From IMG/VR virus record IMGVR_UViG_3300047318_000243, positions 1 through 39,329 of that record: 39,329 nucleotides of DNA. One strand, given 5' to 3'. The position numbers were made by a program, and so were the translations under genes. The stretch is from a virus. How positions within the stretch are numbered: the first letter of the stretch is position 1; each line of letters opens with the position of its first letter. Under the pieces are notes generated by a model. It was given only the letters and a program-made list of their open reading frames with translations. It did not search any database and was not told the origin of the DNA. Of this stretch, positions 8,099 to 25,355 are shown in pieces.

Positions 8099-8206
8099 AT
8101 GTAGAAATGTAGGTATGTAGGGGTCTTCCGCATCACTTCCTATAGGGAGAGTTGAAAAGCTCTTAGTATGGATGCTAGACCCCCCTACATATCTACACTT
8201 CTACAT
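8099..8206. promoter_or_regulatory. Inverted iteron module 1
   Basis: The left arm 8099-8123 holds three 8-bp units ATGTAGNN followed by GGG; the right arm 8181-8206 holds CCCCC then three units CTACATAT, CTACACTT, CTACATGG. The arms are inverted around a 57-bp spacer and pair almost completely (8 + 5 + 10 bp). It lies 31 bp upstream of early element 1. A second module with the same plan is at 25251-25355. Possible roles: activator binding array, replication or att-related site, or RNA stem. Confidence 0.65.
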
Positions 8207-8310
8207 GGCTTGAGGGTCATTTGGCTACCTTCAGTGATCAATGGTGACTCTGTGCTTGCTTGCCCTCGTGCGCTGTCGCGTCCCCTGGCCACCGGCCCCC
8301 GAACATGCGT

Positions 8311-8353
8311 GTGGCCCGGATCACAGAGACTGACTCTCCGTCACCCGGGCCAC
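8311..8353 (-). terminator. Hairpin after integrase gene
   Basis: Perfect 9-bp arms GTGGCCCGG / CCGGGCCAC with an inner AGAG/CTCT, 17 bp past the integrase stop. There is no T-run, so it is a weak intrinsic terminator or an mRNA end-protecting hairpin. Confidence 0.45.
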
Positions 8354-8369
8354 CGTTAGTGCCTGCCGC

Positions 8370-10163
8370 TCACGCTGCCATGGCTAGCGCTTCCTGTCGC
8401 TGCTGATTGTCCCGCGCCTCGCTTACGAACGTGACATTCACCCGGATGGCCGGGTCATAGGGGTGCCACCGGTTCGGCTTCACGGTCAGCTTGCCTACGT
8501 CGATGCGGTCCACAAAGAGAGTGACGAACTCCCGACGCTCCGACAGGCTTGCCGTTGCCCACCACGAACCCTCTCCGATCGGGTCACGCTCGTTGTCATC
8601 GTTCAACCATGCACCGATCGGCAGTACGGGAGACTGCACGTCGTCAAGGGCGGCCAGCGCGGCATCAAGGTGCGCTAGGCGCGCTTCTGCGGCGTCCATG
8701 GACTCAAGGACGGCCGCGCGCACGCGAGGGCCCGCATTGGCCGTCACAGCGGCCTTGTACTCCGTCTCAGCTTCCTTGAGGCCCTGCGCAGCAAGCGCGC
8801 GTTCCACGACCAACTGTCGGCGCTCCCGAACGTCTCCGGCCGGCTCAACCCTGCGCGCGAATCGGCGGGTTGCTGCAAGCAACATGTCCGCCGTGTCCGG
8901 GTCGTCTTCAGCGGCCCCCAGACGGGCAAAGATCAGAGAGGCAACGTACGTGTCTAGAGCTTTCTGATTCATGCTGTTGGTGCCCTTGTGGCCCCCGTCC
9001 CGGTCGTTGCACTTGTACGACGCCCCCACGGCCGTACTCGTACCTGACGGGTTCTGACTGGTCATCGACTTGCCACACGTGACGCTGCACCGCAACACCG
9101 GTTCGTCACGGGCGTTGCGCAACGCGCTGAGAAGTGAGTCATGCCGGTACAACCCTCGCCCCTTCCCTCGGCCGTCCAACCACGCCTGAAGCTCCCACCA
9201 CTCTTCCGGCGGGATGTTGGGTTCATAACCGGCCATGACGGGGTTGCCCTCTGCGTCCCGCTCGATGCGGTATTCGTGCCCGTGACGGCCTACGCGCTCC
9301 GCCTTGTATCCGGCCTGTCGGGGGTCACGCAGGCACCGATTCACCGTGCTGACAGACCACTTGGCGTGTGCGTGCACTCCGCCCTTGAGGGCACCACGGC
9401 TAGGGATGCCGTCCTTGTTGAGCATGAACATGATCCCTGCGAGGGATGCCGGGTCGCGCTGCCCCCTTGGCACCTCAGCGCCCCTACCGGCCTTGATGGT
9501 TGCCCACATGAGGCGCACTACGTCCCGTTCGGAGAGGCTGTGCCCGCCCGGGGCCGGTTCGTCCTGTGGCACAAGCGTCTGAATGACCACCTTGCCCACA
9601 AGGGCACGCTCCACTCTGAAGCCGTACGGCGGGTGCCCGCCAACCCATCCCCCGGCGGCGCGCTGCTGCTCGAAGGTGCCGCGCACGGCAATGGACTTGT
9701 TCCGGGATTCGTTGTGACTGGCCTCAAAACGGAGAATGATGTTCATCAAGTCCATGACGTTGTCAGACTTGAATTCACCTTCGTTCACACTGATGATGCG
9801 CACGCCGAGTGAGAACAATTCCAGCATTTGGCGAAGAACAAGGTTGGTGTCCTGCCGGGAGAAACGCGACGCGTAGTGCACCACGATCATGTTGACGCGC
9901 CCGGCCCGGCAGTCATTCATGAGCCGGCCGAATCCCTTTCGCTCAGCCGTAGGGGAATACCCCGATACGCCGATATCCTCATAGGCGCCACGGCCTACAA
10001 GGACAGTGTCCGGCTGCCGCTCGATGAAGTCGCAGCACTTGGCGCGCTGGTCCTCCGGCGAAGCCTCGCTCTTGTTCGCCTTAGCGCGCGACTGACGGAT
10101 GTACGGCGCTGCGTACCACATGGTGCCTGACACGGTGCCACCCCAAAGACTCATGGGGAGCAC
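8370..10163 (-). CDS. int: Large serine integrase, phiC31 family
   Basis: 597-aa site-specific recombinase for lysogenic integration. N-terminal resolvase fold with catalytic Ser25 in YIRQSRA and active-site arginines around YASRFSRQDTN; the recombinase domain starts with PPYGFRV; ELQAWLDGRGKGRGL is nearly the same as recalled phiC31 integrase; a zinc ribbon (RCSVTCGKSM ... YKCNDRDGG) is followed by a coiled-coil hairpin (about 425-500) and a C-terminal GSWWATASLSERREFVTLFVDRI segment, also phiC31-like. Start: GTG 10163 with GGGGAG 7 nt upstream; ATG 10154 and ATG 10121 are alternatives. attP should be close, most likely in 10164-10311 as in phiC31, but I could not place it. Confidence 0.97.
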   Translation of the reverse strand: MLPMSLWGGTVSGTMWYAAPYIRQSRAKANKSEASPEDQRAKCCDFIERQPDTVLVGRGAYEDIGVSGYSPTAERKGFGRLMNDCRAGRVNMIVVHYASRFSRQDTNLVLRQMLELFSLGVRIISVNEGEFKSDNVMDLMNIILRFEASHNESRNKSIAVRGTFEQQRAAGGWVGGHPPYGFRVERALVGKVVIQTLVPQDEPAPGGHSLSERDVVRLMWATIKAGRGAEVPRGQRDPASLAGIMFMLNKDGIPSRGALKGGVHAHAKWSVSTVNRCLRDPRQAGYKAERVGRHGHEYRIERDAEGNPVMAGYEPNIPPEEWWELQAWLDGRGKGRGLYRHDSLLSALRNARDEPVLRCSVTCGKSMTSQNPSGTSTAVGASYKCNDRDGGHKGTNSMNQKALDTYVASLIFARLGAAEDDPDTADMLLAATRRFARRVEPAGDVRERRQLVVERALAAQGLKEAETEYKAAVTANAGPRVRAAVLESMDAAEARLAHLDAALAALDDVQSPVLPIGAWLNDDNERDPIGEGSWWATASLSERREFVTLFVDRIDVGKLTVKPNRWHPYDPAIRVNVTFVSEARDNQQRQEALAMAA

Positions 10164-10311
10164 TGTACATCTCCCCTACAGACGACTACCCAACGATTGT
10201 ACCCGTTTAGGCAGATGTATGGGCAAGGCCCCTGACCTGCGGAAATGCGGATTCCCCCATCCGGCGCAGTACGTCCCGAGGAATGGTCCAGACCTCAAGT
10301 ACCGTTGAGGA
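10164..10311. other. Region upstream of integrase (probable attP area)
   Basis: 148 bp between integrase and the plus-strand ORF. It contains a direct repeat GAGGAATG (10279-10286 and 10308-10315) around a CCTCAA-GTACCG-TTGAGG dyad, and a CGGAT-TCCCCC-ATCCG dyad near 10248-10263. phiC31-type attP sites are about 40-50 bp imperfect dyads next to the integrase 5' end. None of these can be named as attP with confidence. Confidence 0.35.
10196..10226 (-). promoter_or_regulatory. Possible integrase promoter
   Basis: Minus-strand -10-like TACAAT (10201-10196) with TTGCCC (10226-10221) 19 bp upstream, giving a leader of about 25 nt before the GTG at 10163. The 19-bp spacing is long, so this is tentative. 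Confidence 0.35.
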
Positions 10312-10542
10312 ATGTGCGCCAGCAAGGAAGAGCCCATCCGCATCTCGGGGTGTCTCACGCGCGCAGACGCATGGGGGCAGGCTCTTGAGTTGGGGCCGAT
10401 GCTCCGCCGTATGGGCCGCCCCGACACGGTGGGCGCCGCACGTTGGGGGCAGGGGTGGGCTGTGTTCTTCTACCCACAGACAGAAGCCCCCGCCCGAGCG
10501 TCGGGGGATCGCTCAGACGGGGGCCGTTCACGGGGGTTCTAG
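10312..10542 (+). CDS. Possible small plus-strand gene, divergent from integrase
   Basis: 76 aa, function unknown. It is the only plus-strand frame that looks like protein: high G/C at third positions, a compact N-terminal part (PIRISGCLTRADAWGQALEL, then RRMGRPDTVGAARWGQGWAVFFYP) with alternating hydrophobic pattern. The last about 20 residues (low-complexity, basic) overlap the minus-strand terminator and may be non-native. ATG 10312 has GAGG too close to be a good ribosome site, which weakens the call. A divergent gene beside an integrase could be an accessory lysogeny gene. Confidence 0.4.
   Translation: MCASKEEPIRISGCLTRADAWGQALELGPMLRRMGRPDTVGAARWGQGWAVFFYPQTEAPARASGDRSDGGRSRGF
10486..10524 (-). 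terminator. Terminator after gene 10539-10838
   Basis: Minus-strand hairpin GCCCCCG ... CGGGGGC (10524-10518 with 10492-10486), then TTCTG. An inner CCCGA-GCG-TCGGG adds stability. Confidence 0.6.
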
Positions 10543-10838
10543 CCGGCCGACTCTGCGGGCTCAGCCTCGCTCTGCGCCGGGGCATCCTCCGGGCCCTCTG
10601 CGGGCCCCTCAGAGGCCGTGCAGCGGGTGTGTGCGGGCAGGTAGGCCGAACGGGGCGGGTGCCCGTCCCCGTGACTGTCGTACATCCCGGACTGAGGGCG
10701 GTTGGGGTCGAACGGCATGCGGTACACCCTCCGGCGCCGGTGGCGCACTTCTGAGTTGAGGATCATGGTTCGCCGACGCAGGGCGTCCACGTGCGGCACG
10801 CTGGCAGGCTCCAGCTCCGGCCCGGCAGGGTCACTCAC
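10539..10838 (-). CDS. Hypothetical protein
   Basis: 99 aa, unrecognised. Basic centre (VRHRRRRVYRMPFDPNRPQSG) and an acidic Pro/Ala/Glu tail. GTG 10838 follows GGGGGT and overlaps the end of the upstream gene by 8 nt, so the two are co-translated. Last gene of a three-gene overlapping operon (11461 to 10539). Confidence 0.6.
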   Translation of the reverse strand: MSDPAGPELEPASVPHVDALRRRTMILNSEVRHRRRRVYRMPFDPNRPQSGMYDSHGDGHPPRSAYLPAHTRCTASEGPAEGPEDAPAQSEAEPAESAG

Positions 10839-11199
10839 TCGACACCCCCACGCGCGGGTTGGGGCACTTCCGTGCATGCCTGTCGCGTCGGTCTTGGATG
10901 GTCTGCCGGAACACGTCCGGGTCCGGGTCGTGATGCGCGCGCGATGCCAGCGCATCAAGCCTGCTGCACTCCCCGCATTCGGTGCTGGTCACGCCGGGCG
11001 CATTCCCTTCCATGACCGTGGCCTCAGCGTCCGGATTCAGGAACCGGCACTTGGCTGCATGCGCCGTGCGCAACTGCTCGATGTCCGCCAGGGCCGCCAT
11101 GTCGCGCAGCTCTTCGGGTACCTCAGAGAACAGGGTGTTCATGCGCTCGAACGACCGGCAGACGGCGCACTTGGCCGGGGCTTCAGGCAGCGTCGACAT
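10831..11199 (-). CDS. Hypothetical Cys-rich protein
   Basis: 122 aa with three Cys groups: CAVC near residue 10, CRFLN near 52, and CGEC (about 75-78) followed by a His-rich segment and RHARKCPNP near the end. Spacing suggests one or two zinc sites. Unknown role; nucleic-acid or protein contact is plausible. ATG 11199 overlaps the preceding gene by 17 nt. Confidence 0.65.
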   Translation of the reverse strand: MSTLPEAPAKCAVCRSFERMNTLFSEVPEELRDMAALADIEQLRTAHAAKCRFLNPDAEATVMEGNAPGVTSTECGECSRLDALASRAHHDPDPDVFRQTIQDRRDRHARKCPNPRVGVSSE

Positions 11200-11461
11200 G
11201 CGCGGCCCCCGGTACGTGAACGTGGGAGCACAACGGGCACACGTAGCGGTACCCCTTGGCCCGTCGTTCGGCCTCGCCCTTGAGGTAGTCGGCGCGCATC
11301 TCTGCCATTTCGGCGGGGGTGGCACGCCTGCTGGGGGGCCGTCGCACAACAGGAACGGCGGCCGGTTCGGTGGGTTCGTCTGTACTCGGAGAGCCCACTT
11401 GACCAGCCGCCGAAGCGTCCGCGTCAAGTGGCCTTCTCCGCTGTGCTAGTGGCTCTAGCAT
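11183..11461 (-). CDS. Hypothetical zinc-ribbon-like protein
   Basis: 92 aa. Disordered Pro/Ser-rich first half, a helical AEMAEMRADYLKGEAERRAKG segment, then YVCPLCSHVHVPGAAH near the C-terminus, a CxxC with histidines. ATG 11461 chosen for the AAGGGGA site 5 nt upstream; an in-frame ATG at 11503 lacks one. Confidence 0.6.
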   Translation of the reverse strand: MLEPLAQRRRPLDADASAAGQVGSPSTDEPTEPAAVPVVRRPPSRRATPAEMAEMRADYLKGEAERRAKGYRYVCPLCSHVHVPGAAHVDAA

Positions 11462-11730
11462 GCGGTCCCCTTGGGGTCTTTTGAGTTGGTCTCGCCCGAC
11501 CATGCGTGATGATCACTCACAGCAACAGCGAGAAAGCCAAGCGTAGACCCCTTTTCGGACACGGTCTAGCAGCAACGGAGTTGAGGGAGCGTCATCAGAT
11601 GATCGGCATATGCGCCCCCGAACGGCCGTTCACGTCGTGCGCGACGGACCTACGGACCCCATGGTGGGTGGGTGGCCAAAACCCGTACTGCATACATATT
11701 CTGCGCTGCGCATAGTCATACACAGAGGGC
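11462..11730. other. Gene-free stretch
   Basis: About 270 bp with no supported gene. A half-site resembling the CIR arm (GAGGGAGCGTCATC near 11584) is present. The promoter of the 11461 operon should lie at its left end, but no clear -10/-35 pair stands out. Confidence 0.4.
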
Positions 11731-11770
11731 AAAAGTCAAGGCCCCCGCCACGGTCCGGCGGAGGCCCCTT
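11731..11770 (-). terminator. Terminator after gene 11773-12060
   Basis: Minus-strand stem GGCCTCCGCC / GGCGGGGGCC followed by TTGACTTTT; overlaps almost directly the stop of the upstream gene. Confidence 0.75.
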
Positions 11771-11772
11771 AG

Positions 11773-12060
11773 TCAGCGCTCAGTTTCGTTCCCCTCCTCA
11801 TCCCCCAGCAGGAACGGGAACGGGTCTAGTTCCTTGCCTACAGCCTGCTCTGCGGCTCTCCACTCAACGACGCGATGCCCTCCCACCCGGCGCACCATGT
11901 CCTCGATCATCCATTGATTAAGTACCTCGTTACCCTCGCCATGCTGCAAATTCCATTCGTCGCAGAGTTCCCGCAGGTCCCAGCCCGCGATGATCGCACG
12001 CGCGCCGCTGAAAGGCGCCCGCTTAGGGCCACCCTTCCCCGGACGCTTCTTGGATGCCAT
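11773..12060 (-). CDS. Small basic protein, likely leaderless
   Basis: 95 aa, not recognised. Lys/Arg/Gly-rich N-terminus, then a helical core (ARAIIAGWDLRELCDEWNLQH ... NQWMIEDMVRRVGGHRVVEWRAAEQAV) that could hold a helix-turn-helix, and an acidic C-terminus. There is no ribosome site: a host-type promoter ends 6 nt before the ATG, so the mRNA would begin at or next to the start codon. It is a stand-alone unit: CIR, own promoter, gene, terminator. Such wiring fits a gene expressed in the lysogen, for example an immunity or exclusion function (inference). Confidence 0.7.
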   Translation of the reverse strand: MASKKRPGKGGPKRAPFSGARAIIAGWDLRELCDEWNLQHGEGNEVLNQWMIEDMVRRVGGHRVVEWRAAEQAVGKELDPFPFLLGDEEGNETER

Positions 12061-12066
12061 ACGGGT

Positions 12067-12095
12067 AGCTTAGGGGCCGTCAGATGATCAAGCAA
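12067..12095 (-). promoter_or_regulatory. Host-type promoter for gene 12060
   Basis: Minus strand: TTGCTT (12095-12090), 17-bp spacer, TAAGCT (12072-12067), then 6 nt to the ATG. This is a sigma-70/HrdB-like pattern giving a leaderless transcript. Confidence 0.55.
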
Positions 12096-12180
12096 GCCGA
12101 ACGTCCAAATACCCCCCAATCGGCGGGGGTCCCGCCATGATCACCTGACTGTTACTCAGTTGACGAACAGGCATGGTACA

Positions 12181-12202
12181 GAGCGTTAGTTGCCTAACGC
12201 TC
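12181..12202. promoter_or_regulatory. CIR operator 3
   Basis: Perfect copy with TTGC centre, directly after the terminator of the 12258 gene and about 86 bp upstream of the promoter of the leaderless gene. Confidence 0.9.
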
Positions 12203-12212
12203 CGGGAACGAC

Positions 12213-12247
12213 GAAAAGGCCCCCACTCCGGGAAGGGGCAGGGGCCG
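12213..12247 (-). terminator. Terminator after gene 12258-12806
   Basis: Minus-strand stem GGCCCCTGCCCC / GGAGTGGGGGCC followed by TTTTCG. Confidence 0.8.
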
Positions 12248-12257
12248 TCAAGGGGTC

Positions 12258-12806
12258 CTAGGCAGGCAGGGAGAGAAGTTCCCGCAGGTAGTCCATACCG
12301 GTACGTACGGGGGCCGCTACGGGGGCTTCAGCGGCCGGCACGGGGGCATCCGTGACGTACTCATGAGTGACACCCTCAAGCGAGGCGGCGAACACGTCAG
12401 GGTCAACGGTCGTGAAGCGAACCGGCGCATCACCCTTGCGGCAGTCGACGTACTTCCCGCCGTTGTCCGGGAAGTTCTTGGCAGCCTTGAGGGCAGCGTC
12501 CCGAACCTTGGCAGCGTGGGCCATGTGCTGGCGAACAGCGTTGTCCCCCGCAACCTCCGGAGTGCCGTACTCAAAACCGAGCTTGACGTGTCGGGCCGCA
12601 GCAGCCTTGCGCACGCCCTTAGAGGACTTCTCGTCGTCCGCGTACCGGGCCTCAGCCTTGCCCGCCCGCCACGCTATGAGCGCTGCCTTGACGGCCTTGG
12701 TGTGCCGGGCCTCAAGCGACTTCAGGTCACGCGCGCTGTGAGCCTCAGTGAAGACAATGACGGCGCGACCCTCAAGGGTGAGCTCGGTCTGTCGGTAGTC
12801 GTACAT
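12258..12806 (-). CDS. Hypothetical protein, helical, own transcription unit
   Basis: 182 aa, unrecognised. Residues about 20-115 are Ala/Lys/Glu-rich and helical (LEARHTKAVKAALIAWRAG, AARHVKLGFEY, HAAKVRDAALKAAKN); C-terminal Ala/Pro-rich linker then a short MDYLRELLSLP helix. ATG 12806 has GAGAGGAA upstream. It is flanked by a CIR upstream and a terminator downstream, so it is a single-gene cassette. Confidence 0.75.
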   Translation of the reverse strand: MYDYRQTELTLEGRAVIVFTEAHSARDLKSLEARHTKAVKAALIAWRAGKAEARYADDEKSSKGVRKAAAARHVKLGFEYGTPEVAGDNAVRQHMAHAAKVRDAALKAAKNFPDNGGKYVDCRKGDAPVRFTTVDPDVFAASLEGVTHEYVTDAPVPAAEAPVAAPVRTGMDYLRELLSLPA

Positions 12807-12853
12807 TGCGCGTTCCTCTCGCTCGCTCGGTGCGGTCTCATCCTGACATACTC

Positions 12854-12875
12854 CAGCGTTAGGCAACTAACGCTC
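12854..12875. promoter_or_regulatory. CIR operator 4
   Basis: Centre GCAA (opposite orientation to most) and one outer base changed (C for G at 12854). It lies 48 bp upstream of the 12806 start, after a terminator. Confidence 0.85.
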
Positions 12876-12893
12876 CGGCGTGGCGTAGGCCAC

Positions 12894-12935
12894 AAAAAGA
12901 ACCCCCGACCGGCCTTGACCGATCGGGGGTAGTTC
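12894..12935 (-). terminator. Terminator after gene 12948-13349
   Basis: Minus-strand stem ACCCCCGATCGG / CCGGTCGGGGGT followed by TCTTTTTG; a strong intrinsic terminator. Confidence 0.85.
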
Positions 12936-12947
12936 TGAGTTCGCAGG

Positions 12948-13349
12948 TCAGCCGTAGTACGTAGCGCCGAGTGTCGCCACCTGCAACACCTGATCTGCGG
13001 TGTCTCCGTCAAAGTCGACGGCATCCCGGTTGAACAGGAAGTTGCGGCACTCCCTCACGCACTCCGCGCTTGGCTGTCCCCAACTGGGCACGTCAAGCTT
13101 GCGGCCCGAAATGGCCCGGATCGCTCCCATGATCAGCTTGTGATCCACCAGGACCTTACGGGTTTTGGCGGGACCCTCCGGGTCGTCAACCTCGACCTCA
13201 AGGACCCACCCGTCAGGGGCGGGGGTGTCATAGAACGCCCAACCCCCAACCGTGCTCCGCGCACTTACCCACCAGGAATGGGCGATGCACCCCGACCCAA
13301 GGATGTGATCGAACGTGTCCTGTTCGGTCGGGGCACTCAGCTTGGCCAC
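12948..13349 (-). CDS. Conserved phage protein of unknown function
   Basis: 133 aa. The pattern ILGSGCIAHSWWVS at the N-terminus, an acidic beta strand region (WVLEVEVDDPEGPAKTRKVLV), then HKLIMGAIRAISG and FDGDTADQVLQVATLG at the end matches a family that I recall from actinobacterial phages and integrated elements, with no known function. GTG 13349 has GGAGAG 7 nt upstream. Single-gene cassette with CIR in front and terminator behind. Confidence 0.75.
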   Translation of the reverse strand: MAKLSAPTEQDTFDHILGSGCIAHSWWVSARSTVGGWAFYDTPAPDGWVLEVEVDDPEGPAKTRKVLVDHKLIMGAIRAISGRKLDVPSWGQPSAECVRECRNFLFNRDAVDFDGDTADQVLQVATLGATYYG

Positions 13350-13420
13350 TGTCTCTCTCCTGTCGTTCGGTCTTGCGTGGGGACCAACGTACACACGTCC
13401 GGCCCGGTGCACAACAACCG

Positions 13421-13442
13421 GAGCGTTAGTTGCCTAACGCTC
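13421..13442. promoter_or_regulatory. CIR operator 5
   Basis: Perfect copy, TTGC centre, 71 bp upstream of the 13349 start and 6 bp after the terminator of the preceding operon. Confidence 0.9.
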
Positions 13443-13448
13443 TCACCC

Positions 13449-13486
13449 GAAAGAGGCCCCCGCCCGGATCTCTCCGAACGGGGGCC
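13449..13486 (-). terminator. Terminator of the 14879-13493 operon
   Basis: Minus-strand stem GGCCCCCGTTCGG / CCGGGCGGGGGCC followed by TCTTTC. Confidence 0.75.
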
Positions 13487-13492
13487 GATGGG

Positions 13493-13687
13493 TCACGCGC
13501 GCCACACCTCAAACGTGGTGTCAGCGAAGAACGGATGCGCGTTGGGGGTGCTGTCCAGTGCCACAGCTACGGCCGGTCTGTCGTACCAGTCCCCCGGGGT
13601 CACCTCAAGTACCTTGGGCCGGGCCATGGTTGCCAGCACATCGCCGGGCCGCAGGTCGGTTGCCTTGACCCTCTGACGGAACGTCAC
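13493..13687 (-). CDS. Small hypothetical protein
   Basis: 64 aa, beta-rich (VKATDLRPGDVLATM, KVLEVTPGDW, AVAVALDS). No family recognised; the RPGDVL pattern is seen in small hint/SH3-like folds but is too short to decide. The GTG start overlaps the upstream stop as GTGA. Confidence 0.65.
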   Translation of the reverse strand: MTFRQRVKATDLRPGDVLATMARPKVLEVTPGDWYDRPAVAVALDSTPNAHPFFADTTFEVWRA

Positions 13688-13932
13688 AGCACCTCACCCC
13701 GGAGCTTACGACCCCGGTCGACCAGGATTTCCCGGGCCTCAGCGATGAGCAAGTGCCCAAGCCTGTACGCCTCTTCCGGCTCGAACGCCAGGGCCGTTCG
13801 CGTCACCGTTCCCGGTACGTTGTGGTGTCCCTCAAGGATCACAACCTCACCGTGCGTCCGGTGGACCGCCTGCACGGCCCGGCCGGCACTCTGTACAACG
13901 CCCCGGAACTGCACCATCTGAGCCTCAGTCAA
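13684..13932 (-). CDS. Small hypothetical protein
   Basis: 82 aa, unrecognised. Mixed alpha/beta with a histidine-rich AVHRTHGEVVILEGHHN segment and a C-terminal helix (EEAYRLGHLLIAEAREIL) resembling the C-terminal helices of the 13925 and 14601 products, so the three may be distant relatives. Start taken as TTG 13932 (GGAGAGAG upstream, 8-nt overlap with previous stop); ATG 13959 is an alternative. Confidence 0.6.
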   Translation of the reverse strand: MTEAQMVQFRGVVQSAGRAVQAVHRTHGEVVILEGHHNVPGTVTRTALAFEPEEAYRLGHLLIAEAREILVDRGRKLRGEVL

Positions 13933-14122
13933 CGTCTCTCTCCGCACTGTCGATTTCATCGGCTGCCGCAATCAACAGCCGGGCCAACTCCCTTGCAGCG
14001 TCCGACTGAAAGAGCACGGCGTCATCACGACCCGCCGTGTTCTCCCATGCTAGGGACACCTCCTCATCCCACATGTTGAATACGTGGAACGTTCGACCAT
14101 CATGACCGTGCACTAGAGCCAT
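13925..14122 (-). CDS. Small hypothetical protein
   Basis: 65 aa: a beta part (FHVFNMWDEEVSLAW) then DAARELARLLIAAADEI. The strand-then-helix layout with 'ArELarlLi' also occurs in 14601 and 13684. ATG 14122 overlaps the previous gene by 10 nt. Unknown role. Confidence 0.65.
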   Translation of the reverse strand: MALVHGHDGRTFHVFNMWDEEVSLAWENTAGRDDAVLFQSDAARELARLLIAAADEIDSAERDVD

Positions 14123-14589
14123 GCGCGCCCCTCTCCCGCGAGGAATCGCGCCAACTCAACTCGACTCTCTCCGGACGCCGTTGCGCCGAGAAGTTCCGTC
14201 GCCCGGAGGAACGCACGCTCCCGACCCTCGGTACCGGGCTGAGGCAACATGGCCTCAGCGAACGTGACCGGGCGCCCCTGTCGACGCTCCGCCTTGCTGG
14301 CCTGTTCGTCCGCCTCGACCTGTTCGGGGGTGCGGTAGTCCTGCGGGGGCACCGGCATGCCCTGAGTCATGTACGTGGGCACCACGGGCGGGTTGAGCAT
14401 CCGGCGCCGATTGGCGCTCAGCGAGGCCACGGCACGCGCGAACGGCCCCATGTCCTCGGGGCGGACGTAGAACGCGACCGTCACATCATCGGTGCCGTCC
14501 TTGACGGCTATCCGCAAGTCTCCGTCAGACTCAAGCTCAAGGGTGAGAACGTCGTTGGAACTGTGCTGGCAGACGAAGTCATAGCGCAT
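14113..14589 (-). CDS. Hypothetical protein
   Basis: 158 aa. The N-terminal half is beta-rich (VLTLELESDGDLRIAVKDGT, VTVAFYVRPED), followed by a helix, a Pro-rich linker and a helical C-terminus (FLRATELLGATASGESRVEL). ATG 14589 with GAGAGG upstream. Second gene of the 14879-13493 operon. Not recognised. Confidence 0.7.
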   Translation of the reverse strand: MRYDFVCQHSSNDVLTLELESDGDLRIAVKDGTDDVTVAFYVRPEDMGPFARAVASLSANRRRMLNPPVVPTYMTQGMPVPPQDYRTPEQVEADEQASKAERRQGRPVTFAEAMLPQPGTEGRERAFLRATELLGATASGESRVELARFLAGEGRAWL

Positions 14590-14600
14590 GTGACGGCCTC

Positions 14601-14879: not shown

Positions 14880-14926
14880 TGTGCGTCTCTCTCCTGAAGT
14901 CTGTTGGGTACTGCGAGGGCTAGGGA

Positions 14927-14948
14927 GAGCGTTAGTTGCCTAACGCTC
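14927..14948. promoter_or_regulatory. CIR operator 6
   Basis: Perfect copy, TTGC centre, 6 bp after the stop of the 39-aa gene and 47 bp upstream of the 14879 start. Confidence 0.9.
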
Positions 14949-14954
14949 CTCCGG

Positions 14955-15229: not shown

Positions 15230-15263
15230 GGTGAACTCTCCTTTGGGGCGTAGGGGTTGAGGG

Positions 15264-16199
15264 TCAGACGGACAGCACGGCAGCAGCGTTGAGCGCGTCG
15301 TCAAAGTCGCCAAACACCTTTCGGAGCTTGGCGAGAGCCTGCGACTTCAGAACGGGCACGCTCTTGACGTTGCACCCGACAGCTTCCGCAATGGCTTCCT
15401 TGTCCGGGGTAACGTCGGCACCGCGCATGCCAATCTTGGTGATGCGGACCAGCCACGCGGCGCCCTCGGTGCCGAACGTGTGGTTAATGACGAGACGCTG
15501 AGTCGGCGAAAGCTTGGGCAGCAGCAGGACATTGACCAGCGCTGCGCGCGCCCGGCTGTCCTGCGCCACGTCGTCCCGCTGAAGCGTGAGCGACTTGTCA
15601 GCCTTGCCCTGTCGCTCCGCCCAACGATCCTGGGGGCTCTTGGTTCGGTCGCCACGGAACTTGAAGTTGCGCTGTGCGCTCTCCGCGTCGTCTTCCGTCA
15701 TGGTGTCGAACGATGCCGCCGGAGCGAACGAGTAGCGAGCCGCCCGCGCTTCCTCGCGGGAGAACCGGCGCTTCGGGTCGATGCGCTGGACAAGGGCCTC
15801 TGCCGCATCGTGGTCCCCGTCGCACTCCCGCAGCGCCATGGCGTACACGTCAGCCTGTCGGGGGTCGATGCCCGGGGCAGCGTGCCGGTACGCCTCATCC
15901 GACACGGCGCCCTTGATGCGGGCAATGGCGTACGTCGTGAACTTGACGCCGTTCTGCGGGCGGTAGTCGCGCAGTGCCTCAAGGATGGCGATACGCGCTT
16001 CCTGCTGCATGTCCTCCTTGTACGCCGCGCCGTTGCTGCTGCGCTCCGCCCGCTTGTGCGAGTAGGCCACGACCGCACCCTCAAGGGCACTGAGAACCGC
16101 CTCAACGGCCCCGGGGTGCCCGTGCTGGGCAGCCTCTACGGTCTCGGCAAAGTCGTCCGACTCAAGGGCCGTGGTGGTGGTCTCAACGGTGGCGGACAT
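15264..16199 (-). CDS. Phage sigma-70-like factor
   Basis: 311 aa. Residues about 55-105 match sigma region 2 (KEDMQQEARIAILEALRDYR, then GVKFTTYAIARIKGAV), the core-RNAP and -10 binding helices. A charged middle (120-215) replaces region 3, and residues about 225-300 look like region 4 (LSPTQRLVINHTFG ... TPDKEAIAEAVGCNVKSV ... SQALAKLRKVFGD) with an HTH-like segment. It could direct host RNA polymerase to phage promoters. Two early elements lie directly upstream, so it may be expressed early. ATG 16199 follows GAGGAG. Could instead be a sigma-like regulator without promoter activity. Confidence 0.75.
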   Translation of the reverse strand: MSATVETTTTALESDDFAETVEAAQHGHPGAVEAVLSALEGAVVAYSHKRAERSSNGAAYKEDMQQEARIAILEALRDYRPQNGVKFTTYAIARIKGAVSDEAYRHAAPGIDPRQADVYAMALRECDGDHDAAEALVQRIDPKRRFSREEARAARYSFAPAASFDTMTEDDAESAQRNFKFRGDRTKSPQDRWAERQGKADKSLTLQRDDVAQDSRARAALVNVLLLPKLSPTQRLVINHTFGTEGAAWLVRITKIGMRGADVTPDKEAIAEAVGCNVKSVPVLKSQALAKLRKVFGDFDDALNAAAVLSV

Positions 16200-17253: not shown

Positions 17254-17293
17254 CCGTCGGGTAGCCCGTTCGGGTACCCCTCTAGCGCCCTCA

Positions 17294-17638: not shown

Positions 17639-17651
17639 GGCACCACCTTGT

Positions 17652-19508: not shown

Positions 19509-19524
19509 TTGCTCTCTCCCATCG

Positions 19525-19546
19525 GAGCGTTAGGCAACTAACGCTC
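19525..19546. promoter_or_regulatory. CIR operator 8 (primase-polymerase gap)
   Basis: Perfect arms, centre GCAA. Fills the 39-bp gap between primase stop and polymerase start. Confidence 0.9.
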
Positions 19547-19547
19547 T

Positions 19548-22028
19548 CTACTCGCCTCCGAAAATGCCGGGCCCGGTGCCCAGGTTGGCTGAGGCCAACT
19601 TGACCCCCACTAGGGCCATGCCTGCACCAAGTCGCTTTCGGGGAACGCCCCGCTCCTCCATGGCGCTGTAAAACGCGCGGCGGGTCCACCGCTCACGCAT
19701 GGGCAGGTTCTCTGCCTCGCACCACTCAAGGTACGAATTGAAGGCGTCCGACCCGATCACGTAATCCGTGTCGACACCCCGGGCCAGCGTGCCCGGAAAG
19801 AAGCCGTAGAGAGCGTCAGACGTCACCTTGTAGTCAGCCGTGCTGTCCTCAACGACCGCCGGGTCCTGAAGCCCCGTCGCATACCACTCAACGGCGCCAC
19901 GGACCGCCCATGCCACGATCCCCTCAGCCTCAGCCATCAAGTCCCGAGTGAGGTTGTAGTTCCGCTCTTCCGGGCGGAAGAACCGCGTAAACGGCAGCAT
20001 CTTGACGCGCCGCCAGAGGCCGTCATCCTGCCCGCGAAAGCTCGGCTTGTGGTTGGTCGCAAGCATGATGAGAAACGTCGGCTTGAACGTAAAGAACTCC
20101 TGCCGCAAGAACCGCGCGGCAATCTTGTCCTTACCGGTTACGCGCTTGATGATGGCCTCAGACATCGGCTTGCCTGACTCGCCCTCAGATGCCATGACCA
20201 GACGGGCACCGCGCAGGGCTGCAATGTCGTTGGGGATGCCGCCACTTGACCGTTCCTCAAACGTGCTGAATGGGGTTGTCTTCGAGATGCCCCCGAAAAT
20301 GTCCGTCAGTACGTCCGTGAGGACTGACTTGCCGTTCGCGCCCTTGCCGTACAGAACAGCGAAGCACTGTTCATCGGTCGACCCCGTGATGCCGTACCCG
20401 ACCAACCGGCGCATGTACGCGGGCATGTCCGGGTACTGCGGGAAGATCTCATCGAGAAAGCTCTCCCACCGGGGGCACGCGGCACTTGGGTTGAAATTCA
20501 GCGGGAGGCAGACCGTCAGAAGATCTGTCTTCCGGTGCTCCCTCAGCTCACCCGTTCGCAGGTCGACCGTGCCGTTACGGAAGCTCAGCAGCTCCGGGCG
20601 CGCGTCGAAATCGTCGGCCCCCACGTAAACGGCCGGCACGGACCGAAGCTCACGCATCAAGTCTTCAATGCGGCGCGACATCGTAAAGCCCTTGGCTGCC
20701 TTGCCGATTGGGCATTCCTTGTCGGGCTCTAGGCCGTCAAGCTTGCGTTGCTCCCTCCGCTTTGCGGCAGCCACCGTGAGGGCAGCGCCCATACTGTGAA
20801 TGACCTGACGGACCTTTACCTCTGAGCGCTCCCACACTCGCCCGGTCCACACGAAGAACCCCAAGCCCTCAGCGAACCGGATACGCCCGTCGGCCCATGC
20901 GACCAGCGCGTGAGCGTTGAGCACGTCTGACGCGCCGTAACGTTCCATGGTCCTTTCAAGGACCTTGAGAGCGGCATCCGCTTCTTTCTCGGACGGCATG
21001 GCCGTGCCGAGGTGGGCGTCAAGCTCCGCGTGCCCCTCCCCCGTTGATACCGGCATGGCAGCGTCGAGAGAGGCAGCGAGATCCGCCGTGAAGCGATCCC
21101 CGGCAGCCTCGCGCCAATCGGTCAAGTCCATGCCCGTAGCAGGCGTATTGAGGTGGAGAACGTCGAGCCCGAACGGGGCCAGTGCCGCAGCAACAGCCGC
21201 AGCGAACTTGTATCCAGCGTCGTCCCGGTCGGCCGAGACGAACACGCGCGCACCCTTGAGGCCCTGCGCCAACTCCTCAGCGAGGCCGGGCGAGTTGACC
21301 AGCGATGCACCCCGGATGACCACGGCCGTATGACCCGCAGCACGGGCCGTGAGGCCGTCGCCCGGTCCCTCCGTGATGATGGCCGTAGCGGCACCCGCAG
21401 CGAGGAACACCCCGTAGGGCAGCCACCGCATCCCGTCCGGGTTCGCCAGCGACAGCCAACGCTTAGGGCAGCGCCCCGAGATGTCGCGCCCTTGAAGCCC
21501 CTTCGGGTTCCCGCTGAAGTCGCGCAGGGGGACAGTCAGTCGGGGGAACCGCACGTAGTCAGTCGAGAGGTACGGGAACGGCGGTATGTCGTACCCATTG
21601 TCGTCAAGGCCAAGCTCCAGCTCACGCGCCAGCGCCGCCGAGACGCCGAACCGGTCGGCAGCGTACGCGCGGGCCCGGTCGGTCCACTCGCTACCGCCGT
21701 CGCCCAACAGGGCTGACGTTGCGTCAACGTAGTTGGCGAGGCCGGCCAGAGGGGCGCCCGTCACCATGTCCGGCCGCTCAGCCGGGGCAGACGCCACGAT
21801 CTGACCGGGCGTCACGTTGAACAGGTCCGACCACTGAAGATTGACGGCAGCGACCACCGCCGCAACGGTGCAACCCGCGCGGCAGTGGACGCCAACCTTG
21901 CCATTCTCATGGTGGACCAGCAACAGGGACGGGCGAGAGTCGTTGTGGGCAGGGCATCGGACGACCACGCCGTCCGGCACAGTCTCAAACTCCGTGCCGA
22001 ACTTGCCTACCAAGGTGTCCATGTCCAT
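19548..22028 (-). CDS. Primase-helicase (P4 alpha-like)
   Basis: 826 aa combining priming and unwinding. N-terminal zinc finger C25, H28, C49, C53; TOPRIM-like domain about 215-290 (IITEGPGDGL, then VFVSADRDDAG); D5-type region (LSFRNGTVDLRTGEL, about 470-485); superfamily 3 helicase with Walker A GKGANGKSVL near 562 and Walker B/B' downstream (MASEGESGKP, then a sensor Asn in MLATNHKPSF). phiC31 gp9a has the same architecture (recall). ATG 22028 with GGGGAGA. It starts 12 bp after the nuclease gene. Confidence 0.95.
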   Translation of the reverse strand: MDMDTLVGKFGTEFETVPDGVVVRCPAHNDSRPSLLLVHHENGKVGVHCRAGCTVAAVVAAVNLQWSDLFNVTPGQIVASAPAERPDMVTGAPLAGLANYVDATSALLGDGGSEWTDRARAYAADRFGVSAALARELELGLDDNGYDIPPFPYLSTDYVRFPRLTVPLRDFSGNPKGLQGRDISGRCPKRWLSLANPDGMRWLPYGVFLAAGAATAIITEGPGDGLTARAAGHTAVVIRGASLVNSPGLAEELAQGLKGARVFVSADRDDAGYKFAAAVAAALAPFGLDVLHLNTPATGMDLTDWREAAGDRFTADLAASLDAAMPVSTGEGHAELDAHLGTAMPSEKEADAALKVLERTMERYGASDVLNAHALVAWADGRIRFAEGLGFFVWTGRVWERSEVKVRQVIHSMGAALTVAAAKRREQRKLDGLEPDKECPIGKAAKGFTMSRRIEDLMRELRSVPAVYVGADDFDARPELLSFRNGTVDLRTGELREHRKTDLLTVCLPLNFNPSAACPRWESFLDEIFPQYPDMPAYMRRLVGYGITGSTDEQCFAVLYGKGANGKSVLTDVLTDIFGGISKTTPFSTFEERSSGGIPNDIAALRGARLVMASEGESGKPMSEAIIKRVTGKDKIAARFLRQEFFTFKPTFLIMLATNHKPSFRGQDDGLWRRVKMLPFTRFFRPEERNYNLTRDLMAEAEGIVAWAVRGAVEWYATGLQDPAVVEDSTADYKVTSDALYGFFPGTLARGVDTDYVIGSDAFNSYLEWCEAENLPMRERWTRRAFYSAMEERGVPRKRLGAGMALVGVKLASANLGTGPGIFGGE

Positions 22029-22040
22029 TGCAGCTCTCCC

Positions 22041-22451
22041 CTATTGAGATGTGGCGCCCGCCCTCACGGCTTGTAGCACCTTGGCGAAAGTGGCCAAGTC
22101 CATGACCACGTATCCCGAACTGACGCCCTTTCGGGGCGCCTTGACGACAGCGACGCCGTACGGAAGTCCCGCGTTACGCGCCTCTGCGTTGGCCTGCCGG
22201 ATGTACCCGGGCAGGTCGAACGACCGCTCAGCCTTGAACTCCAGACAGAACGGGATAGCGTGCGCGTCGCCGATGTCCGCCTTGCCCTCTTGCACCTGCC
22301 TGCGGACGTTCTCCGGGTCGGTCGGGTCGACCCAACGGAGCGTCCGCCCAAGCTCTTTCCAGCCGGGCCGGTACTTGCCCGTCACCTCGTTGAGGTAGTC
22401 ACACCCGGCCGTTTCCCACTCAGTCCCCTTGCGCTTGTTCTCATTTGCCAT
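22041..22451 (-). CDS. PD-(D/E)XK nuclease, Holliday-junction-resolvase-like
   Basis: 136 aa. RKGTEWETAGCDYLNE supplies the first acidic residue, GKADIGD the second, and FCLEFKAERSFDLPGYI the ExK pair (E71, K73). The end has a conserved YVVMDLATF segment. This pattern is common beside actinophage replication genes and often named Holliday junction resolvase; it could also be another structure-specific nuclease. ATG 22451 lies inside the end of the small membrane-protein gene (11-nt overlap). Confidence 0.75.
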   Translation of the reverse strand: MANENKRKGTEWETAGCDYLNEVTGKYRPGWKELGRTLRWVDPTDPENVRRQVQEGKADIGDAHAIPFCLEFKAERSFDLPGYIRQANAEARNAGLPYGVAVVKAPRKGVSSGYVVMDLATFAKVLQAVRAGATSQ

Positions 22452-22587
22452 GGGGCCTCAGCGCATCCCAGAGAGCGCCCAGGATCTCCGCCGTAACCAC
22501 GATCACGAGCCAGAGAACAACCATGGCCACGACCGCCAGCACGAACAGCGCCAGCAGGTTTGCCAGCAGCACCACGGCGTCAACCAC
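22441..22587 (-). CDS. Small membrane protein B
   Basis: 48 aa. Almost one continuous hydrophobic helix from residue 4 to 36 (LLANLLALFVLAVV, then MVVLWLVIVVTAEIL), short basic tail (RPHGK). GTG 22587 overlaps gene A by 8 nt and its stop overlaps the nuclease start by 11 nt. Overlaps on both sides and clean hydrophobic pattern support a real gene. Unknown role; exclusion or membrane tethering of replication are possibilities. Confidence 0.6.
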   Translation of the reverse strand: MVDAVVLLANLLALFVLAVVAMVVLWLVIVVTAEILGALWDALRPHGK

Positions 22588-22714
22588 GGTTCCCCCTACG
22601 CGACTTGTAACGGTCCACCAGGGCCAGCACGCCGGCCGAGATGAACAGCAGGATCATGAAAGCCTCAACGGCCAACAGGATGCGGAACACGACACCGAAC
22701 GTCTCACGGTCCAT
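22580..22714 (-). CDS. Small membrane protein A
   Basis: 44 aa: MDRETFGVVFRILLAVEAF start, one membrane segment (ILLAVEAFMILLFISAGVLALV) and a basic tail (DRYKSRRGNRG), so N-out/C-in is likely by the positive-inside rule. ATG 22714 with GGAGGGG upstream; overlaps the upstream gene by 11 nt. Unknown role. Confidence 0.6.
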   Translation of the reverse strand: MDRETFGVVFRILLAVEAFMILLFISAGVLALVDRYKSRRGNRG

Positions 22715-22898
22715 CAGGCCGGTACCCCTCCACGCTCAGGGTTGCGCCCCGCCCGACGGCCGACACGGCGGCATCGAGTAGGCGAGTCCAGTCCGGACGA
22801 TTGCGCGCTTCGCGCCGGATAATGATCACGTCGCCCTCTCGCGCCGCACGGATGTCCCCGGGGGCCGGGGCCTGAGTGGGTGTCACGATGTACATCAC
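22704..22898 (-). CDS. Small hypothetical protein
   Basis: 64 aa; beta-rich IIIRREAR centre flanked by Pro-rich start and a helix (RLLDAAVSAVG). The GTG start (22898) overlaps the previous stop as GTGA, with an ATG as the next codon. Part of an overlapping string 23170-22041. Not recognised. Confidence 0.6.
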   Translation of the reverse strand: MMYIVTPTQAPAPGDIRAAREGDVIIIRREARNRPDWTRLLDAAVSAVGRGATLSVEGYRPDGP

Positions 22899-23170
22899 GG
22901 GGCAACCTTGGGGGCCGGGGCCGTCACGGCGACGTGCTCGGTCGTGATGGTGATCTCGCGCATGGTCGCGCGCTTTACGAAACCGCTCTCGTTGCCGGTG
23001 GGCTGCACCTTGAGGAACGGAATCACTCGACCCTTGTAGCGCTCGGTGTAGACATCCGTCACAGTGGCCTCAGCGAGACGCACACGGTTGTTGTGTCGCG
23101 CGGCGTACACGATGAGGGCCCCCTTGGTGATCGGGACGCCAGCGATGTCGGTTGCGGGGCTCTTGGCCAT
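22895..23170 (-). CDS. Small hypothetical protein
   Basis: 91 aa, beta-rich: VPITKGALIVYAAR, AEATVTDVYTERYKGRVIPFLKV, then REITITTEHVAV. Could be a small OB- or SH3-like barrel. ATG 23170 follows GAGGAGAG. First gene of the replication operon after a CIR and terminator. Confidence 0.65.
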   Translation of the reverse strand: MAKSPATDIAGVPITKGALIVYAARHNNRVRLAEATVTDVYTERYKGRVIPFLKVQPTGNESGFVKRATMREITITTEHVAVTAPAPKVAP

Positions 23171-23210
23171 GTCTGTTCTCTCTCCTCTGAGTTGGGGCAC
23201 ACAAAGGGGC

Positions 23211-23232
23211 CCGGCCGTGGTGACCGGGCCCC
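23211..23232 (-). terminator. Terminator after gp3-like gene
   Basis: Minus-strand stem GGGGCCCGG / CCGGGCCCC followed by TTTGTG. Here the CIR lies before the terminator; at the other CIR-terminator pairs it lies after. Confidence 0.75.
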
Positions 23233-23236
23233 GTGG

Positions 23237-23258
23237 GAGCGTTAGTTGCCTAACGCTC
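23237..23258. promoter_or_regulatory. CIR operator 9
   Basis: Perfect copy, TTGC centre, 5 bp after the gp3-like stop codon and 4 bp before the terminator stem. Confidence 0.9.
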
Positions 23259-23263
23259 TCCGG

Positions 23264-24004
23264 CTAGAACGGGGGCTCTTCGGTGTACTTGTCCTCGTCG
23301 TACGTGGTGTGCGGCGCGTCGGCGATGGCATCCGCGTACGCCTTGATGACCCGCACGACCGGCTTGCGGTAGCTCACGGGCTTGCCGTCCTTGGTCACGA
23401 ACTCGACCAGCTCAAGCGAGAGCTTGCAGAGCGCCGGGCCGCCGACACGGTCGAGAGCATCCTCAACCTCGTGCAGCACCTTGACCAGTTCCCAGGAAGA
23501 CGACACGAACCGGAACTTGCCAAGCTCCGTGTCCTCCGCCAGACGGAACGTCACCTCAACCGAGGGGGCCGGGCCACGCCCGGACTTGGCGGCTGCCTTG
23601 CGGTCGACCAGCAGGGGCGGGCAGCCGCAAGGCTTGCCCTTGTCCTCTTCCGGCGACAGGAAGTCCACGCCGTCACACTCGTGAATGGGGCCCTGACGAC
23701 CCCACAGGATCATGCGCGACCGGATCGCCTTGGAGCCGTCGATCACGATCTCGACGCTGTCCCGGTCGGTGAGAACCTGCATGGCGTCTTCGCCCGTGGT
23801 GTCCCACTCCTCCGGGCGTCCGCCCATGAGTTCGGCGATTGCCTCCGCCGTGTCCGGGTCGCCGGTCGTGACGCGCCACTCGGGCAGCGACACCGGGCGG
23901 TTGTTCTGAGTCATGCCGGAGCGGAACCGGCCCACGTAGTCGTTGGCGAACCGGGCCTTGGGCTTGGAACCGGGGTCGGTCTCGTAGATACGACGCAGAG
24001 ACAA
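23264..24004 (-). CDS. phiC31 gp3-like protein (integrase directionality factor)
   Basis: 246 aa, the size of phiC31 gp3 (about 244). Segments that I recall as shared with gp3: RRIYETDPGSKPKARF and VGRFRSGM at the N-terminus, EWRVTTGDPDTAEAIAEL, LIHxCDGVxFxSPEEDKG-like ECDGVDFLSPEEDKGKPCGC, and KVLHEVEDALD with GGPAL. gp3 binds phiC31 integrase and switches it to excision (attL x attR); it sits among replication genes in phiC31, as here. TTG 24004 is preferred (GAGGAG 8 nt upstream). The recall cannot be checked here, so a general replication-accessory role remains possible. Confidence 0.7.
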   Translation of the reverse strand: MSLRRIYETDPGSKPKARFANDYVGRFRSGMTQNNRPVSLPEWRVTTGDPDTAEAIAELMGGRPEEWDTTGEDAMQVLTDRDSVEIVIDGSKAIRSRMILWGRQGPIHECDGVDFLSPEEDKGKPCGCPPLLVDRKAAAKSGRGPAPSVEVTFRLAEDTELGKFRFVSSSWELVKVLHEVEDALDRVGGPALCKLSLELVEFVTKDGKPVSYRKPVVRVIKAYADAIADAPHTTYDEDKYTEEPPF

Positions 24005-24115
24005 GGGTTGAACTCCTCTGTAGGGCTTCTGTGGTGGGGGTTGGAGCCAAGGGAGAGGGGCCGGTTGCTGCGCTTTCGCGTCTGCCGGTGCGTCCCTCTC
24101 CCTCGCTCACTTGAG

Positions 24116-24133
24116 TTGACCGGGGAGGGTTAA
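24116..24133 (-). promoter_or_regulatory. Early element 4 (gp3-like gene)
   Basis: Minus strand TTAACCCTCCCCGGTCAA, overlapping the stop codon of the upstream gene and 111 bp before the TTG start. Confidence 0.6.
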
Positions 24134-24369
24134 CGCCGCTTCTCGTGCGACGCCCACACGGTCTCTGCGCGCTCTACGTGACCCGTGACGGTTGCGCCGT
24201 CGCTTCGCCAGCGCTCGTAATTCCGGGCGTTGGTGATCGCTGCCGCAGCAGCACCAGAGGCGGCATACGGGCCGTACGTGACGGACGACTCCCGGCCGTC
24301 CGGCCACGTCAGCACCACGACAGCGCGAAATACCTCAGTGGCCATGTTTTGATTCCACGTGCGCGCCAT
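24130..24369 (-). CDS. Small hypothetical protein
   Basis: 79 aa: beta strands (VFRAVVVLTWPDGRESSVTYGPY) followed by a helix (GAAAAAITNARNYERW) and strands, a dsRBD- or ferredoxin-like small fold by pattern only. The ATG shares one base with the exonuclease stop (TAATG), so translation is coupled. Its TAA stop is part of early element 4. Confidence 0.7.
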   Translation of the reverse strand: MARTWNQNMATEVFRAVVVLTWPDGRESSVTYGPYAASGAAAAAITNARNYERWRSDGATVTGHVERAETVWASHEKRR

Positions 24370-25160
24370 TACTTGGCCCGTCGCTGAGTGCCGGACTCGA
24401 CGGCGCCGCCCGACTCAACCGGCCGGCCAACGACGGACTTTGAGCGCTCTCGCTCCCAGTCGAATACCTGCCGGAGCGCCAGGAAGACGCTAAACACGTC
24501 CTCGCTCACCTCAACGGGCTTGAGAGCCCATTGGTCGGCCGTCACGTGCAGTACGGCGCCAGCGTCTACGTGCGGCATCTCGAACTCGACCCCGTCCGGG
24601 TCAAGGATCTTGTCCGCGTAGGAGTAGGCGGAGAGCTGAAGCGCCACATCCGGGTAAGTCGCCTTGCTGGTCTTGTAGTCCAGCATCACGACTTCACCCT
24701 CAATGCGGCACAGCGCATCGAAGCTACCGGCGTACTTGTGGGTGTCGCTCCACGCCACGTCTTCCATGCGGATGAACTCCGGCTGCACCTTCGCCAGGAA
24801 CTCAGCGAAGTGCACCCGGTACGGCTCGATGTCCGGGTGTGCGCGTCGCACGTCCTCACCCCGGGCCATGCGCTCGAACACGTCGTGCGCGTCGCTGCCG
24901 ATGTTCGCGCGAAGCTTGGTGTAGCGGGTGGCCGCACCCTTCACAAAGTCGATTGCCCCGGCACGGTCGTTCATGGCCAGCGTGACGAGAGCACCGACGT
25001 TGTCAACGGCGCACTTGGCGGCCTCGTTGGCACGCCAGTACCCAAGGAACTCCTTGGGAAGCATGCTGATGATGGACGTGACGCCCGGGTACTTGTCCCG
25101 GGTCTCCGGGTTCACGTAGAACCGGCTGCCCCCGCGCATGATGGTGTTGACGCCTGCCAT
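24369..25160 (-). CDS. RecB/Cas4-type PD-(D/E)XK exonuclease
   Basis: 263 aa. Motifs of the family in order: IGSDAH (G88-H92), YAGSFDAL (D148), VMLDYKTSK (D161, K163), LQLSAYSYA (Q175, Y179). No iron-sulphur cysteine set as in true Cas4, so RecB-like nuclease is the better name. Probable role: end resection for phage recombination or replication. ATG 25160 with AGGAGAG; early element 5 ends 39 bp upstream, and iteron module 2 lies beyond that. Confidence 0.9.
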   Translation of the reverse strand: MAGVNTIMRGGSRFYVNPETRDKYPGVTSIISMLPKEFLGYWRANEAAKCAVDNVGALVTLAMNDRAGAIDFVKGAATRYTKLRANIGSDAHDVFERMARGEDVRRAHPDIEPYRVHFAEFLAKVQPEFIRMEDVAWSDTHKYAGSFDALCRIEGEVVMLDYKTSKATYPDVALQLSAYSYADKILDPDGVEFEMPHVDAGAVLHVTADQWALKPVEVSEDVFSVFLALRQVFDWERERSKSVVGRPVESGGAVESGTQRRAK

Positions 25161-25198
25161 GTGGTCTCTCCTCTGTGCGTCTGTCGCTTGCACAGTGG

Positions 25199-25216
25199 TT
25201 GACCGGGGAGGCTTAA
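25199..25216 (-). promoter_or_regulatory. Early element 5 (exonuclease)
   Basis: Minus strand TTAAGCCTCCCCGGTCAA (one change from consensus), ending 39 bp before the ATG. Confidence 0.65.
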
Positions 25217-25250
25217 CGGCCCGTGGCGGGGGCTCTGAGGCCCTGCGGGG

Positions 25251-25355
25251 GTGTAGAAGTGCAGTTGTGTACCGGGCCCGTCGTAAGGGCCGTAGAGAGG
25301 GCCTAGAGGGCTTTAGATGGAATGAGGGGGTACCTACATTCCTACACTTCTACAT
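25251..25355. promoter_or_regulatory. Inverted iteron module 2
   Basis: Left arm GTGTAGAA, GTGCAGTT, GTGTACCG (25251-25274); right arm CTACATTC, CTACACTT, CTACAT (25334-25355), preceded by GGTAC. TGTAGAAGTG and CACTTCTACA are perfect inverted 10-mers. Placed 35 bp upstream of early element 5, as module 1 is placed 31 bp upstream of element 1. The spacer sequence is unrelated to that of module 1. Confidence 0.65.

Follow-up and report, generated by a model that had tools for sequence, protein, structure and literature searches.

Two modules of short inverted repeats in a viral DNA stretch of 39,329 nt (IMG/VR record IMGVR_UViG_3300047318_000243; the whole stretch is called the window) raise the question of what they do and which molecule reads them. 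The window represents a Streptomyces phage of the phiC31 kind, and the modules together flank its 17-kb early region. No Streptomyces phage is better known than phiC31, whose integrase is in wide use, and we know of no replication origin mapped for it. Judging from sequence, we consider it likely that the modules are cis-acting replication sites, either a pair of origins or an origin with a helper site, read by the phage's own primase-helicase, a protein resembling P4 alpha.

Two inverted iteron modules and their conservation

Exploring the window, we delimited module 1 (site B) and module 2 (site A) as follows:

8098–8207: site B, candidate replication site with three 8-bp iterons, an AT-rich spacer and three inverted iterons
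8099–8122, plus strand: left iteron array of site B, ATGTAGAA-ATGTAGGT-ATGTAGGG
8136–8168, minus strand: AT-rich core of site B, which reads ACTAAGAGCTTTTCAACTCTCCCTATAGGAAG on that strand and is similar to the TAAG...CTCTATAGG core of the family
8185–8208, minus strand: right inverted iteron array of site B, reading CTACATAT-CTACACTT-CTACATGG on the plus strand
25248–25356: site A, second candidate replication site, laid out as site B, upstream of a gp1-like exonuclease gene
25251–25274, plus strand: left iteron array of site A, GTGTAGAA-GTGCAGTT-GTGTACCG
25290–25316, minus strand: core of site A, CTAAAGCCCTCTAGGCCCTCTCTACGG on the minus strand
25334–25357, minus strand: right inverted iteron array of site A, reading CTACATTC-CTACACTT-CTACATTC on the plus strand

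The units of the window are of the type RTGYAG, the third left unit of site A being degenerate (GTGTAC). A first-pass annotation had placed two inverted three-unit modules here and had claimed that the window holds no other copy; both modules lie where it put them, and the triple pattern, searched with up to three mismatches, matches these two places alone. None of 100 shuffled sequences reached as many triple-pattern matches (shuffle mean 0.05), and the oriented paired structure occurred in none of 300 Markov simulations. Single CTACAY words were at background (20 found, 17.6 expected) while the triple array stood far above it, indicating that the signal is the array and not the word.

Searched against phages, neither the integrase-side region (megablast) nor module 2 (sensitive blastn) gave a match, and no named phage was found. 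These DNA searches came back empty because the spelling of the units diverges too fast, and we therefore anchored the comparison on the neighbouring genes:

8370–10163, minus strand: serine integrase of the phiC31 type, neighbouring site B on its upstream side
24369–25160, minus strand: Cas4/RecB-type exonuclease homologous to phiC31 gp1, neighbouring site A on its downstream side

Conservation in relatives, which the first-pass annotation had proposed as a check, was borne out: the module pair was found in 20 of 21 other phages with hosts in Streptomyces, Arthrobacter, Microbacterium and Curtobacterium, including phiC31, phiBT1 and TG1 (element boundaries in the named phages were set by hand). 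Both sites occupy fixed places in the relatives, one directly upstream of the gp1 exonuclease and the other directly after the integrase position, and counterparts of site A were also found in loci L005 and L006. phiC31 carries inverted arrays of GTGAYG-type units in both homologous gaps, and in the variant found in phiSASD1 and Dubu each arm has a single, longer unit. In locus L093 part of the right arm of site A and the sequence following it are repeated further upstream, as if by partial duplication, which may be compared with the two 120-bp repeats of P4 crr.

The spelling of the units varies between phages, as with GTGACG in phiC31 and RTGYAG in the window, and agrees between the two sites of one phage. 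When arms were compared across the set, a phage's own A-B pair ranked first in 18 of 21 phages; in the remaining three, all with close relatives among the phages compared, it ranked second. The summed A-B similarity was 15.95, compared with a maximum of 10.3 in 20,000 permutations. Given that the sites are many kilobases apart and that their spelling is strongly phage-specific, something in each genome must keep A and B alike. The simplest reason is a shared DNA-binding protein, the alternative being gene conversion.

The layout of the sites is likewise regular. Of 127 iteron spacings, 102 are 8 bp and most others 7 or 9 bp, and the innermost cores stand 62–91 bp apart. The spacer is 57% AT compared with 34% for the genome, with a higher value at 42 of 42 sites, and carries a loose TAAG...CTCTATAGG core across the family; hence it is not the merely unrelated DNA that it had been taken for. 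Opposed arrays around an AT-rich spacer would be the layout expected of helicase-loading arrays flanking a region to be unwound.

The same arrays serve as arms in long inverted repeats (fold z-scores of -7.3/-7.6 and -3.8), and the 2-bp spacers of mirrored units match in 61% of cases compared with 33–37% by chance, a rate biased by our picking the register that maximises matching. Strong folding and matching spacers would suit modules that act as RNA, i.e. as long transcript hairpins in antitermination of the HK022 put kind or as processing signals. A plain stem, however, has no need of short repeated units at 7–9 bp spacing; pairing is poor at several sites (L005, Nesbitt); the spelling of the units covaries with a DNA-binding wing, as described below; and a search of Rfam matched the tRNAs alone and neither module. 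We therefore regard an RNA role of this kind as quite improbable.

The position of module 1 beside the integrase gene and the presence of two copies about 17 kb apart could also point to recombination or packaging sites, such as accessory sites for the integrase or its recombination directionality factor (RDF). Yet the annotated attP of phiBT1 lies upstream of int (38686–38770) and not at site B, VroomVroom has both sites though the stretch of it that was read bears no integrase annotation, and the columns of the RDF hardly separate iteron classes, so that this explanation is scarcely credible. We also considered a serine-integrase attP as such, and rejected it: an attP is about 50 bp long, present in one copy and located by int, whereas here two copies of about 110 bp are present, and int is some 15 kb away from one of these.

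Iteron type and the wing of the primase-helicase

The protein that we propose as initiator is encoded between the two sites:

19548–22028, minus strand: primase-helicase of 826 aa with Toprim, D5_N, DUF5906/superfamily 3 helicase (SF3) and C-terminal winged-helix domains, proposed initiator
19593–19781, minus strand: C-terminal winged helix (aa 750–812), proposed to bind the iterons; recognition helix at aa 783–792, wing holding residues 799 and 804
19632–19634, minus strand: codon of R799, the column that separates iteron types best

For covariation we used 103 IMG/VR loci with a primase, 80 of them also with a usable upstream region, and added the named phages. Oriented 5-mers assigned 46 to class TGACG, 14 to TGTAG/TGCAG and 4 to TGTCG and left 37 in no class; the 64 phages with an assigned class formed the covariation set. 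Scanning about 800 primase columns, we found that columns 799 and 804, both in the wing, separated the classes best; the classes had been defined after inspection of the first phages, and the column scan was unguided. Arginine was found at 799 in 18 of 18 TGTAG/TGTCG phages and lysine in 43 of the 46 TGACG phages. The overlap at the best column (0 being perfect separation) was 0.07 for the primase, compared with 0.34 for the polymerase, 0.33 for the exonuclease and 0.46 for the RDF; one column of a sigma-like protein reached 0.13.

On a tree of primase residues 1–690, which excludes the wing (a quick tree with some long branches), iteron class changes 11 times, at least eight of them on well-supported branches, and residue 799 follows the class switch in seven of eight independent pairs with none in the opposite direction (p = 0.016). 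A natural swap is seen in L127 and L049, whose primases are 94% identical over aa 1–690 and 56% identical in the winged helix, and whose iterons differ. Among close relatives, mean winged-helix identity was 0.80 when the iterons agreed and 0.60 when they differed; identity of polymerase, exonuclease and RDF was nearly unchanged between the two groups, and that of the sigma-like protein went from 0.63 to 0.53. In Attoomi, entirely different arms are found together with a divergent helicase and C-terminal part. The primase of this phage (L022, 24351–26792) looks chimeric, with an ordinary N-terminal half and a helicase and C-terminal part 33–38% identical to others; its exonuclease is ordinary, like the primase N-terminus.

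Loci without a class were afterwards read by eye, several of them giving no clear unit. By this reading lysine 799 went with TGAYG units in phiC31, TG1, Shawty, L065 and L140, arginine with TGTAG, TGCAG or TGTCG in L073, L108, L109 and Sycamore, alanine or serine with TGGTG in L111, L138 and L135, and asparagine or aspartate with the phiSASD1/Dubu type.

The sigma-like/DNA-binding protein (phiC31 gp12 family; window 15264–16199) and its homologues diverge much faster than their neighbours. As reader of the iterons this protein was rejected: L049 and L051 share their iteron class and have primases 98% identical, while their sigma-like proteins are 48% identical. The same pair bears on the explanation that the modules are operator or activator arrays for the early operon and the tRNA/late region, bound by a phage DNA-binding protein, or by the primase-helicase as a regulator, with early elements as promoters. 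Both modules do lie directly upstream of transcription units and beside such an element:

8048–8075, minus strand: early element beside site B, outside the module, GTTAACCCTCCCCGGTTAAT on the minus strand
25196–25223, minus strand: early element beside site A, outside the module

These belong to six minus-strand copies of the GTTAACCCTCCCCGGTCAAC element in the window (starts at 8048, 16234, 16301, 24113, 25196 and 27636), most of them directly upstream of gene starts, which are probably early promoter or operator sequences. An early element had been reported 31–35 bp from each module; the element is indeed near each, but it begins about 25–30 bp away, and it is not specific to modules, four further copies standing without one. 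The link of the modules to early promoters is thus positional only. Given these four copies, an iteron type that is tracked by the wing of a replication helicase and not by a known regulator, and a sigma-like protein that can drop to 48% identity without a change of iteron class, we hold the operator explanation to be unlikely.

For replication sites read by the primase-helicase, the support at sequence level consists of two fixed sites per genome, 7–9 bp spacing, an AT-rich core, matched iterons and covariation with the wing. Several observations weigh against this reading. Dismas, alone among the 21 phages, shows no such site. GC skew gave no clear origin signal. Three of the 46 TGACG phages carry R799, and the reading by eye added exceptions: L071 and L101 combine R799 with TGACG, L113 has mixed units, DrSierra combines R799 with AGTGAAG, and Honk, Attoomi and Samy have lysine 799 but units of other types, indicating that residue 799 is a marker among the common unit types and not a complete code. 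Correlation of pairwise identity alone does not single out the winged helix, as the sigma-like protein and the Toprim part correlate with iteron type too; column-wise and tree-based tests resolve the winged helix better. Lastly, given the excess of matching mirrored spacers, a hairpin or cruciform may play a role, with stem pairing as a possible contributor. Of the three candidates put forward by the first-pass annotation, the replication initiator site has strong support, from the two conserved fixed sites and the covariation with the primase-helicase wing. Its view that selection acts on protein-binding units is supported; the activator array and the paired RNA stems are not favoured.

As a mechanism we propose that the C-terminal winged helix would bind the 8-bp iterons and that the oppositely pointing arrays would load two SF3 hexamers, one on each side of the AT-rich spacer. 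The helicases would then melt the spacer and travel apart, and the Toprim domain would prime synthesis for the phage family-A polymerase. Self-loading of the initiator, origin firing, its direction and the way in which the two sites would share the work are all matters that we infer. More tentatively, and with somewhat less than even confidence, we suggest that two origins flank the early region, that a detachable wing sets specificity and is swapped together with both sites, and that residue 799 is a partly readable code (lysine with TGACG, arginine with TGTAG/TGTCG, alanine or serine with TGGTG). If so, repeated swaps of wing and sites would make replication groups blind to the origins of other groups, which might be a way to evade competition or satellites.

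Relation to P4 and SaPI origins

The first-pass annotation knew no described phage element of this form, which was wrong as to kind: the ori and crr of P4 and the origins of Staphylococcus aureus pathogenicity islands (SaPI) are of the same sort. The winged helix of P4 alpha binds origin repeats, followed by unwinding and priming (PMC4234260). SaPI Rep and Cch2 of the staphylococcal cassette chromosome (SCCmec) bind iterons through their C-terminal domains, Rep apparently as two hexamers, and the repeats bound by Cch2 are AAGTG (PMC7581432).

Like P4, the window has two separate cis sites sharing 8-bp iterons; in the P4 record, ori and crr each carry annotated 8-bp type 1 repeats that point in opposite directions. 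The P4 repeats are of another sequence (GGTGAACA-like) and their arrays are less symmetrical, P4 crr consists of two 120-bp direct repeats, and P4 ori has type 2 repeats too; unlike those of P4, the phiC31-like sites closely resemble each other and flank the early region. SaPI and SCCmec origins are also helicase-iteron origins, but single and directly downstream of the helicase gene, whereas here the sites lie at 8.1 and 25.3 kb and the helicase gene at 19.5–22.0 kb.

The proteins compare in a similar way. As in P4 alpha, a Toprim primase is joined to an SF3 (D5_N) helicase: Pfam matched Toprim, D5_N and DUF5906/SF3 in the window protein (aa 217–303, 372–530 and 559–674) and the same families in P4 alpha, and in the helicase part the two share 25% identity across 237 aa (E = 9e-12). 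Pox_D5 was found by Pfam in P4 alpha and not in the window protein. Also as in P4 alpha, the C-terminal domain is a winged helix, here a predicted one (predicted local distance difference test, pLDDT, 81–92), whose best match in the PDB was RFX1 (probability 1.00, template modelling score 0.68 to the target, root-mean-square deviation 2.0 over 72 columns, 15% identity, E = 0.05) and not the P4 domain; the P4 origin-binding fold was absent from the top 50 structural matches. RFX1 is a eukaryotic transcription factor, and the likeness lies in the fold alone. RFX reads bases through its wing, which fits the wing position of residues 799 and 804. RFX1 was likewise the weak best match of the C-terminal domain in the vaccinia D5 structure (PMC9611036). 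Together, domain content and layout support membership in the P4-alpha-like kind, with iteron binding as a prediction.

Our literature search found no description of such elements in phiC31-like phages; the older phiC31 papers, including the 1999 genome paper, were outside its scope, and an earlier mention is possible. The kind of element being known from P4 and SaPI, what appears new, that older literature aside, is that the sites form a pair around the early region and that the wing code switches. Exact candidate sites are now given for phiC31 (21.67–21.76 kb and 40.44–40.54 kb), phiBT1, TG1 and many relatives, a predicted binder is named (gp9a in phiC31), and single residues that may set iteron preference are indicated. 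The start of replication in a large group of actinophages thereby becomes directly testable, and nature supplies in this family a set of initiator-origin pairs that are orthogonal to one another.

Other features of the window

The identified genes of the window are all on the minus strand and also include a gp3-like RDF (PF18897), the family-A polymerase and a homologue of the phiC31 repressor c (PF25746). Module 2 is placed between repressor and gp1, and module 1 between integrase and a tRNA cluster of eight genes (Leu, Asn, Pro, Lys, Met, Glu, Thr, Gly; 6525–7657) directly downstream of it. A 220-bp direct repeat at the ends of the record (1–220 and 39110–39329) suggests a complete, circularly assembled genome; its copies were reported as 100% identical, yet they failed an exact string comparison and may differ slightly. 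A 20-bp palindrome, AGCGTTAGnnnnCTAACGCT, occurs in 14 copies across the whole window, starting at:

3466, 6880, 12182, 12855, 13422, 14928, 17233, 19526, 23238, 26967, 29274, 32356, 36853 and 38941

Conserved inverted repeats are known for phiC31 and offer a comparison; the palindromes are possibly operators of the phiC31-c-like repressor, or terminators.

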